Below are positions 15,437 to 18,876 of a DNA stretch of 21,138 nt, piece by piece; position 1 is the first letter of the stretch, and each line of letters begins with the position of its first letter. A model generated the notes under the pieces. It worked only from the letters and a program-made list of their open reading frames with translations. It was not told where the DNA came from and searched no databases. Source of the DNA: a virus; IMG/VR virus record IMGVR_UViG_3300030329_001758, positions 1 to 21,138 of that record. One strand, 5' to 3'. The translations under genes were made by a program, and so were the position numbers.

Positions 15437-15828
15437 TTGGACAGATACTAGGTGCAGCCGCGCCCATCTTAGATAAGTTTATCGAGGACAAAGACGCTAA
15501 GAACAAGATTAAAGCAGAACTAGAGCAAAGCATAATTGGTCTACAAGCAGCACAAGCAGCAGCGAATGTAGAACAGGCGAAGCACTCATCCTTGTTTGTC
15601 GCTGGGGCAAGGCCAGCAATCATGTGGATATGTGCGCTTGGTTTACTAACTCAGTTTTTCCTAATGCCTATCGCTGAATGGGCTTCAGCTTTGTGGTTTC
15701 CAGACATAGCCTTGCCGAGTTTAGCCACTGAAGAATTAATGACTTTGACATTGGCACTGTTGGGGCTTGGTGGAATGCGTAGCTTTGAAAAGTCAAAAGG
15801 CGTAGCTAGGGAGAGTATGAAAAAATGA
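15433..15828 (+). CDS. Three-TM phage holin, GTA-type
   Basis: This 131-residue protein resembles the family of holins with three membrane segments described for gene-transfer agents and phages. The N-terminal amphipathic region (GQILGAAAPILDKFIEDKDA) leads to the central helical linker (KIKAELEQSIIGLQAAQAAA). The conserved RPAIMWICALGLLTQFFLMP motif starts the membrane part, followed by a second hydrophobic segment (IAEWASALWF) and a third (LMTLTLALLGLGGMRSFEK). It should form inner-membrane lesions that let the endolysin reach peptidoglycan. It overlaps the endolysin gene by ATGA (15825-15828), the classic holin-endolysin arrangement. Confidence 0.85.
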   Translation: MIGQILGAAAPILDKFIEDKDAKNKIKAELEQSIIGLQAAQAAANVEQAKHSSLFVAGARPAIMWICALGLLTQFFLMPIAEWASALWFPDIALPSLATEELMTLTLALLGLGGMRSFEKSKGVARESMKK

Positions 15829-16445
15829 GTAAAGCAATGAAAGCCTTGCAAGCCAAGGTTGGCGCGGTCGCAGACGGTGCGTTTGGTAAAAACACAGCTA
15901 AAGCTATCGCCAAGCATTACGAGTTATCTCGCAATCGCGCTGCACATTTGCTGGGTCAGGCGCATCACGAAAGTGGTGGTTTTAAGCGCACCAGAGAAGG
16001 GCTGTATTACAGCACGCCAGAGCGACTAATGGCTGTATGGCCTAGTCGATTTAAGTCTGTAGAGGAAGCAATGCCTTACACCAAAGACCCACAGAAGTTA
16101 GCAAACAAAGTTTACAACGGACGCATGGGCAATGCTGAAGATTCTAATGACGGTTGGCTGTACTCTGGAAAAGGTTTTTTGCAATGCACTGGCAAATCAA
16201 ATGTCAGAGCGTTTGCATCTGATATGCGCTTACCTGAAGTTATGGAAAACCCCATGTTGCTTGAGAACGAATATGCTTTTGAAAGTGCTATCTGGTTTTT
16301 TAGAGCCAACAACTTATTTAAGCTTTGCGATCAAGGCGTGGACACCGATACAATCAAAGCGATTACCAAGCGTGTAAATGGTGGCTATCATGGCCTGAAA
16401 GATCGACAAGAGCAAACCACCAAAATATACGAGTGGTTAGGGTAG
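15825..16445 (+). CDS. GH19 chitinase-like endolysin
   Basis: This 206-residue protein cuts host peptidoglycan sugar linkages at lysis. Residues 8-33 (LQAKVGAVADGAFGKNTAKA) look like a short peptidoglycan-binding repeat. The catalytic GH19-type domain follows. HHESGGF carries the likely catalytic E49 and REGLYYS carries E58. The substrate-cleft motifs are YNGRMGN, GWLYSGKGFLQCTGKSN and ITKRVNGGYHGLKDRQE. There is no signal peptide, so release depends on the holin encoded immediately upstream. Length is typical for phage GH19 endolysins. The stop codon lies within a 6-bp hairpin (16440-16457). Confidence 0.9.
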   Translation: MSKAMKALQAKVGAVADGAFGKNTAKAIAKHYELSRNRAAHLLGQAHHESGGFKRTREGLYYSTPERLMAVWPSRFKSVEEAMPYTKDPQKLANKVYNGRMGNAEDSNDGWLYSGKGFLQCTGKSNVRAFASDMRLPEVMENPMLLENEYAFESAIWFFRANNLFKLCDQGVDTDTIKAITKRVNGGYHGLKDRQEQTTKIYEWLG

Positions 16446-16457
16446 CTTGTACTACCC
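16440..16457. repeat. Hairpin at the endolysin stop codon
   Basis: GGGTAG (16440-16445) pairs perfectly with CTACCC (16452-16457) around a 6-nt loop. The loop and right arm include a TTGTACTA octamer (16447-16454). There is no T-run after it, so it is not a standard terminator. It may be a processing or pausing site, or a protein-binding dyad. Confidence 0.5.
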
Positions 16458-16503
16458 AAAACACTGTTTAACTAGTACACAACCAAATTTGTACTAATTG
16501 TTA

Positions 16504-16532
16504 TTGACAGTTTATTTTTCCCCCCATACCAT
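16504..16532 (+). promoter_or_regulatory. Sigma70-like promoter of the RNA element
   Basis: A perfect -35 TTGACA (16504-16509) is followed after 17 nt by a weaker -10 TACCAT (16527-16532). The predicted start is about 16539-16541, exactly where the 5' strand of the long closing stem begins. Confidence 0.65.
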
Positions 16533-16540
16533 AATGCCAT

Positions 16541-16690
16541 GTTATCACTGAAGATTTAGCGATTATTTCTTTTAGTTCTTTACACATCAATCCCCCTTAG
16601 GAGTATATTTTATTCCTCTTGGTGGTAAATCCGAAAGCTAAAAAACTTCAGTGATAACAACGAACTAACTAGCCTTTTGGCCTTTTTTTA
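16541..16690 (+). ncRNA. Candidate structured small RNA (rod-like, about 150 nt)
   Basis: The element is closed by a perfect 13-bp stem, GTTATCACTGAAG (16541-16553) with CTTCAGTGATAAC (16646-16658). It continues as TTTAGC (16555-16560) with GCTAAA (16637-16642) and GATT with AATC further in. The tip has a 7-bp hairpin AGGAGTA-TATTT-TATTCCT around 16600-16618. A promoter ends just upstream, and a short GCC-TTTT-GGC hairpin with a T7 run (16672-16690) follows. No ORF of useful length fits. It resembles no phage RNA that I recognise; the long-rod architecture recalls 6S-like RNAs, but sequence homology is not evident. An attP dyad is the main alternative. Confidence 0.55.
16672..16690 (+). terminator. 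Possible weak intrinsic terminator of the RNA element
   Basis: A 3-bp GC hairpin (GCC 16672-16674 with GGC 16679-16681, loop TTTT) is followed by seven T residues (16683-16689). The stem is short, so termination efficiency is uncertain, but its position 14 nt after the closing stem fits the end of the transcript. Confidence 0.45.
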
Positions 16691-16792
16691 TGTCTAAACT
16701 TATGCGTTTCTGAATATAAAAGGTGGTACAAGGCTAGTACATAATTTGACTAAACTAATACTTTAGTGTTAGCAACGACTGAGGAGAAAGTA

Positions 16793-16999
16793 GTGAAAAA
16801 CATAAAAATCACAGACCATGGGATAAAGCTTTTGGGCGAGTTACAAAAAATTAGAGAAGCATTTACAGCTTCCGACGACTTGTCACTAGATACACAAAAT
16901 CAACTTGCAGACGCATATCTAGCAAAAGCAAATCCTTATGAAACACAAATAATCGAGGAAATTTTTGATGCCAATAATAACCAGACTGGAAAACCTTAA
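16793..16999 (+). CDS. Small ORF overlapping the integrase start, unknown function
   Basis: This 68-residue, mostly helical, acidic protein begins at GTG 16793, chosen because GAGGAG lies 6 nt upstream. The reading frame is open further up to GTG 16766 but without a ribosome site. It contains ITDHGIKLLGELQKIREAFT and ANPYETQIIEEIFDANN. There is no helix-turn-helix clear enough to call an excisionase and no membrane segment. Its last 32 nt overlap the start of the integrase gene, so the two are translated together. An excision or integration accessory role is possible from position only. Confidence 0.6.
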   Translation: MKNIKITDHGIKLLGELQKIREAFTASDDLSLDTQNQLADAYLAKANPYETQIIEEIFDANNNQTGKP

Positions 17000-18083
17000 C
17001 TTATACAAATGCACCACAAGAGGCTATCAACTTCGCTGGACAAGTAAGGATGGCGATAAAATCAGACACCAAGTACCAGCAGACTTACAGAGCAAAGAAA
17101 AGGCGTTGCAATACGCTATTGATAAATCTGCACTTGTTAAGCATGGATTGATGAAAAAAAACAAAAAATGTAAGCCTTTGAAAGACCATGTTTCAGAATA
17201 TTATGCTTTGTTGGACAGGCAAGTTTTAAACTATCAACATAACGGAGAATATGGAGATAAAATACGTCCAGCCAGGCGTGAATGTGTTAAGTCTCACATC
17301 AGGCTACATATCTTGCCCCACTTGGGCGACGTGCCGATTGATCTTATAGAGCCAGTAGACATATTTAGATTACAAGAAATTTTGCGGCAAAAGATGCTAC
17401 CACAGACGGTCAATCCAGTTATAGGTACGCTGTCTCGCATGATGAAGTTTTTTATAGTCGAGAGATTAATAAGAAGCGATCCTTGTCGTGATATTAACGC
17501 TCTAAAAAAGGTGCAAACTGACCCACGTTATACACCTACAAAAAAAGAGGTCGAGCAAGTGATTAATCACTTGGACGGCTGGAAACAAACTATGGTGATG
17601 CTGGCGGCTGGCACTGGCCTACGGATTAGCGAGATATTAGCGCTGGAATGGGATAACATAAAAGGTGATACAATCAGCGTGGAAGCCAGCGCTGTAAAAA
17701 CCAACATAGGCACACCTAAGACCAAGCATAGTCGCCGTAAAGTGCGTGTTGATAGTCGGCTAAAAGTGCGGCTACAAGAAATGCGATTGCAAAGCACTGG
17801 CTCGTTTTTGTTTCTCAATAAGAATGGCCGATTGTTTACGGCTGTGGACGTGCTGAATAGGGTGCTTTATCCAGCGATTAAGAAAGCTGGTGTGCCTAAG
17901 TTTGGCTTTCATGGCTTACGACGGTTTTACGCCAATGAGCTAGAAGCGCAGGGCGTGATGAAAGACCACATACAGCGCCTCATGGGTCACGAAATAGGCA
18001 GCAAAGTAACGGACAAGCATTACCGTAGAGTACGGCAAGAGGAAGTGCTTTTGGATGACTATGTAATCGAGGTGGGGGTCTAA
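16968..18083 (+). CDS. int: Tyrosine-type site-specific integrase
   Basis: This 371-residue recombinase catalyses phage integration and excision. The N-terminus (about 1-65) is an arm-binding-type region with aromatic and basic residues (YQLRWTSKDGDKIRHQV). Residues about 72-165 form the core-binding SAM-like domain (KDHVSEYYALLDRQ, HILPHLGDVPIDLI). The catalytic domain shows the complete set: R219 (GTGLRISEILALEW), a Lys in TPKTKHSRRKVRV (K251 or K253), H315 and R318 (FHGLRRFYA), H341 (LMGHEI) and nucleophile Y352 (KHYRRV). ATG 16968 has GAGG at about 10 nt upstream; a TTG one codon earlier is less likely. It ends convergently with the repressor gene, overlapping it by 4 nt. Confidence 0.95.
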   Translation: MPIITRLENLNLYKCTTRGYQLRWTSKDGDKIRHQVPADLQSKEKALQYAIDKSALVKHGLMKKNKKCKPLKDHVSEYYALLDRQVLNYQHNGEYGDKIRPARRECVKSHIRLHILPHLGDVPIDLIEPVDIFRLQEILRQKMLPQTVNPVIGTLSRMMKFFIVERLIRSDPCRDINALKKVQTDPRYTPTKKEVEQVINHLDGWKQTMVMLAAGTGLRISEILALEWDNIKGDTISVEASAVKTNIGTPKTKHSRRKVRVDSRLKVRLQEMRLQSTGSFLFLNKNGRLFTAVDVLNRVLYPAIKKAGVPKFGFHGLRRFYANELEAQGVMKDHIQRLMGHEIGSKVTDKHYRRVRQEEVLLDDYVIEVGV

Positions 18084-18784: not shown

Positions 18785-18798
18785 CCTCTGATCAGAGG
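18785..18798. repeat. Perfect 14-bp palindrome CCTCTGATCAGAGG
   Basis: The palindrome lies 40 nt upstream of the repressor start codon. It is not followed by T residues on either strand, so it is not an intrinsic terminator. It could be a dimer binding site in the repressor leader. Confidence 0.55.
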
Positions 18799-18860: not shown

Positions 18861-18876
18861 TATGCAATCTTGCATA
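18861..18876. promoter_or_regulatory. Candidate CI/Cro operator TATGCAATCTTGCATA
   Basis: This 16-bp site has 7-bp perfect arms and a 2-nt centre, suiting an HTH dimer. A matching half-site TATGCAC at 18978-18984 overlaps the predicted early promoter start, which supports a shared regulator. Confidence 0.6.

Follow-up and report, generated by a model that had tools for sequence, protein, structure and literature searches.

A constrained non-coding block beside the tyrosine integrase gene of a marine temperate phage, possibly its attP and integrase control region

The virus contig IMGVR_UViG_3300030329_001758 (21,138 bases, analysed whole and called the window below) carries, between its endolysin and tyrosine integrase genes, a conserved non-coding block of some 270 bp. 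The likeliest reading, to which we give a probability of about 50%, is that this block comprises the attP and the region controlling the integrase operon. The block, its constraint, the repeats, the clustered conserved sites and the adjoining tyrosine integrase are established. We favour attP and integrase control because of the position between lysis and tyrosine-integrase genes, the sites in mixed orientation on both sides, the span of about 295 bp and the constraint along this whole span. An earlier note, made from the sequence alone, had placed an undescribed small RNA gene at this lysis/integration boundary. An element is indeed present there, real, selectively constrained, non-coding and provided with a conserved promoter match; among the sources searched it is undescribed as a specific sequence and it is ordinary as a kind. 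The features are as follows.

15825-16445, + strand: endolysin gene, upstream neighbour (phrog_181 endolysin, 3.9e-50)
16447-16454, + strand: TGTACTA-type site 1, proposed integrase arm site, same in the relative
16473-16480, - strand: TGTACTA-type site 2, same in the relative
16488-16756, no strand: conserved non-coding block, proposed attP/integrase control region, from comparison with the relative
16489-16496, + strand: TGTACTA-type site 3, same in the relative
16504-16532, + strand: sigma-70-type promoter match TTGACA-17-TACCAT, 10/12, same in the relative
16540-16659, + strand: hairpin 1, a 14-bp perfect inverted repeat around inner helices (fold and repeat search)
16599-16617, + strand: tip hairpin AGGAGTA-TATTT-TATTCCT, 7 pairs (arms 16599-16605/16611-16617)
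16668-16738, + strand: hairpin 2, outer stem of 9 pairs (16668-16676 with 16730-16738), enclosing the supposed terminator
16672-16689, + strand: weak terminator-like GCC-TTTT-GGC then T7, 3 pairs, no call by the terminator scan
16724-16731, - strand: TTGTACCA, degenerate site 4, same in the relative
16735-16742, - strand: TGTACTA-type site 5, in tandem with site 4 at 11 bp, same in the relative
16793-16999, + strand: 68-aa gene without a family, GTG start after GAGGAG, overlapping the integrase gene
16965-18083, + strand: tyrosine integrase (PF00589, 5.1e-18; phrog_1, 3.9e-47)

The window encodes a SU10-type major capsid protein, a holin, an endolysin, a tyrosine integrase, a CI-type repressor and a Cro-type regulator, and its stabilization protein has kin in several aquatic phages, including a Pelagibacter phage. 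The phage is marine and, since an integrase, a CI-type repressor and a Cro-type regulator are among its genes, temperate. The catalytic domain of the integrase is full, residues 192-359 covering positions 4-171 of the 172 in the PF00589 profile. The 68-aa protein was assigned no family in family searches and was present, in a viral-contig scan, in just this phage and one relative; it overlaps the integrase start and, by its position, may be an excision factor. Elsewhere in the window, a group I intron (Rfam RF00028, 79 bits, 1065-1301) lies at the start of the frame of the SU10-type major capsid gene (1256-2185). The related Phage C72C1 (OQ984150) likewise has its capsid gene split, into two CDS about 470 bp apart, which suggests a capsid gene intron in this phage group.

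The sole relative found with the same module is IMGVR_UViG_3300030406_000717. Viral-contig scans with the integrase, the 68-aa protein, the repressor, a 903-aa protein, the endolysin and the exact stem pattern returned this one module-bearing contig, and the endolysin scan, with at least 167 relatives, contained the module in 1 of the 80 kept; near-identical copies, in the genome of the window itself or in one very close to it, possibly lie outside the search that gave this single-relative count. BLASTN against phage and plasmid records gave no match, and a covariance model built from the two sequences detected no further copies in 91 loci (own relative apart) or in 385 genomes. A shorter stem pattern produced many matches, attributed to chance, and a looser tip pattern matched, by chance, within a coding region of an unrelated locus, L245.

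Comparison of the two phages delimits the block. It carries 5 changes in 269 positions, where the intergenic flanks have 13 in 77 (p=4.5e-6) and nearby four-fold degenerate sites 6 in 49 (p=0.0025), with the p-values here and for the motif below being somewhat optimistic since block borders and motif were picked after the data had been seen. The low change relative to the flanks therefore indicates that the non-coding block under selection is larger than the RNA gene proposed. Constraint extends about 65 bases beyond the T-run and is no stronger in hairpin 1 than elsewhere in the block (3/120 versus 2/149 changes). A 28-aa minus-strand frame, MCKELKEIIAKSSVITWHYGMGGKINCQ (16501-16587, after the ribosome-site-like AAGGGGG), was also considered; it is probably not coding, because both changes in the relative look, by reading, amino-acid changing.

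Short repeated sites surround hairpin 1. TGTACTA occurs exactly 4 times in 21 kb on both strands, at 16448, 16473 (-), 16490 and 16735 (-), all within 16448-16741. Taken alone, this clustering is suggestive and not proof, because its p-value is about 0.02-0.07 when any 8-mer is allowed. Changes between the phages avoid the sites in the left flank, where 7 of 7 fall outside them (p=0.008). At 16473-16496, the motif forms an inverted site, TAGTACA-10-TGTACTA, whose arms are unchanged in the relative and in which two of the bases between differ; it could be a crossover-type or an operator site. A role of TGTACTA as repressor operator was rejected, since the cI-cro region lacks the motif. Between the CI-type and Cro-type genes lies a perfect 14-bp palindrome, CCTCTGATCAGAGG, at 18785-18798, with near-palindromes at 18861 and 18908, and these are likely repressor operators.

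Hairpin 1 is genuine. Its closing stem pairs 16540-16553 with 16646-16659 and is perfect, as the earlier note had described, with a length of 14 bp instead of the 13 given there; an arm pair of 14 bp at the same spacing arose in 0 of 60 dinucleotide shuffles of the window. The further paired segments and 7-bp apical hairpin reported inside the stem are likewise there, the three inner helices being 16555-16560/16637-16642, 16579-16590/16619-16629 and the tip stem. AGGAG, which had been proposed to mimic or sequester a ribosome site, sits paired within this tip stem and not exposed in the loop, and we do not retain that proposal. The hairpin folds with a z-score of -4.9 (0 of 200 shuffles equally good), and among 600 segments of 140 nt scanned on both strands the one over it has the best score (z -6.4, from 20 shuffles only). 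However, z-scores near -5 are reached in several other places of the window, so the fold score alone is not decisive. It owes mostly to the 14-bp repeat: the interior alone gives z -2.1 here, modestly better than chance, and -1.1 in the relative.

An independent small RNA gene, as first proposed, would be transcribed from about 16540 to the T-run, and its rod-shaped product of about 120-150 nt would regulate phage or host genes by pairing or protein binding. The fold score, the best in the window, speaks for such a gene, as do closing and tip stems identical in the relative and a conserved promoter match just 5' of the stem. Counting both strands, the 21-kb window has 7 promoter-like sites that score 10/12 or better, and the match is the sole one among them with a perfect -35 hexamer. 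It stops 7 bases before hairpin 1, and the promoter match claimed in the earlier note stands. We treat it as a candidate promoter, conserved and 10/12, whose activity we infer. At the other end, the T-tailed hairpin read as a terminator is not confirmed: its stem has just 3 G-C pairs (16672-16674/16679-16681), the terminator scan called no terminator at 16672-16689, and the T-run is part of the 5' arm of hairpin 2, which is the better hairpin (z -3.9, no changes in the relative) and is absent from the earlier note.

The pattern of change does not favour the small RNA gene either. Hairpin 1 differs in the relative at 16555 (T>A), 16618 (C>T) and 16640 (A>T); the first and last disrupt pairs of helix 2 and 16618 is unpaired. 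Thus 2 of 41 pairs are broken and 0 changes are compensatory, in two sequences only, too few for a proper covariation test. The interior fold is near chance in the relative, constraint continues past the proposed gene, and antisense pairing to phage start regions is no better than with shuffled sequence. No match came from Rfam, from the loci or from the genomes searched above: an Rfam scan of the window found only the group I intron, far away, and a lenient scan of the region to E 10 gave three chance-level matches to other families. The element is accordingly undescribed with respect to Rfam families, as had been supposed. Its suggested kinship with 6S-type RNAs is dismissed, the RF00013 covariance model being unmatched at the gathering score and up to E 10. 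Of the proposed gene, the promoter match and the stem survive, whereas the terminator, the limits of the constraint and the compensation argue against it, and we consider it rather unlikely.

The same hairpins could instead belong to a structured leader of the operon formed by the 68-aa gene and the integrase, hairpins 1 and 2 governing termination, RNase III processing or integrase translation. One strand carries, in line, the promoter match, hairpins 1 and 2 and the 68-aa gene's ribosome site, and the T-run either follows the short hairpin or pairs in hairpin 2, in an attenuator-like manner. Nevertheless, constraint does not reach the start codon but stops at about 16756, the final 36 bases of such a leader vary freely, and the constrained DNA sites at both ends are left unexplained; we judge the leader unlikely. 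Neither it nor the small RNA is exclusive of attP. A combination, in which the attachment site itself would be transcribed as a two-hairpin RNA coupling integration state or integrase binding to expression of the integrase operon, appears improbable.

A chance inverted repeat within a spacer would agree with the fold z-scores near -5 found elsewhere in the window; it is very improbable given the shuffles, none with a 14-bp arm pair, and the conservation of the block (p=4.5e-6). A MITE-like mobile repeat, suggested by a 120-bp element with perfect 14-bp terminal inverted repeats, is hardly credible, since the flanks have no target duplication and the repeat pair occurs in one other viral contig only, at the same place.

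For attP and integrase control, the parts might be arranged as follows. If the block is recombined, as we infer, an excision factor or the integrase, through its amino end, would bind the TGTACTA-type sites (three on the left, two in tandem on the right) as arm-type sites. The crossover core would then fall between the left and right sites, within the hairpin or next to it. As to the inverted repeats, they may serve at the DNA level, offering paired sites to accessory proteins of the integrase, or at the RNA level, in the leader of a transcript that begins at the 16504 promoter and runs through the 68-aa gene and the integrase. Two separate contigs run unbroken from the lysis gene through the block and the 68-aa gene to the integrase start, which fits the expectation for an unsplit attP. 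The possibility that the inverted repeat is the attP core had been raised in the earlier note as a case against the RNA; the flanking TGTACTA sites do favour an attP/integrase region, whereas the repeat itself is unlike a core. To our knowledge, attP cores do not typically consist of 14-bp repeats 92 bp apart, and we know of no attP model that requires such an inverted repeat with a promoter match. It also counts against attP that the strong fold and the conserved promoter match equally suit an RNA.

No attB-like match above noise was found in 385 class-level and 398 phylum-level genomes; the best matches lay mostly inside unrelated genes and were discarded as noise. This negative is weak evidence, because these genomes need not include the host and a core can be short. 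An integrase scan of genomes gave only distant and uninformative integrases, none of the 385 alphaproteobacterial genomes contained a near relative, and the predicted fold of the phage integrase (pLDDT 36) was too poor to reveal an arm-binding domain.

If the block is attP, it provides a defined site and integrase pair for an uncultured group of marine temperate phages and, via attB, a route to their hosts. If the block gives rise to a stable RNA, a structured RNA would lie within an attachment site, which is unusual. In both cases, a promoter match and a fold score are by themselves insufficient to establish a small RNA gene.

Among known systems, the resemblance to 6S RNA (RF00013) is superficial and lies in the long rod with internal bubbles. 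6S RNA has a size of about 180 nt; the element here has 120 nt and no Rfam match even at E 10. Phages encode regulatory RNAs, including OOP, c4, IpeX and 24B_1 (review PMC12197685), with which the element shares its non-coding and structured nature, its place at the lysis/lysogeny boundary and a promoter match; it differs from them in its weak terminator and in having no sequence or structure match here. As for the attP regions of tyrosine-integrase phages (lambda; Cluster K mycobacteriophages such as CrimD, PMC3203893), the common core or attB was not found here, and the 14-bp inverted repeat 92 bp apart and the promoter match are additional. In the attP of mycobacteriophage CrimD, the core lies 5' of int, the paired arm sites of 11 bp are oppositely oriented, and a stem-loop sits between the core and one of the arms (PMC3203893). 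The block is like these regions in its position 5' of or beside the tyrosine integrase gene and in its short repeated sites on both sides, partly inverted, and it is like CrimD attP in having a stem-loop inside.
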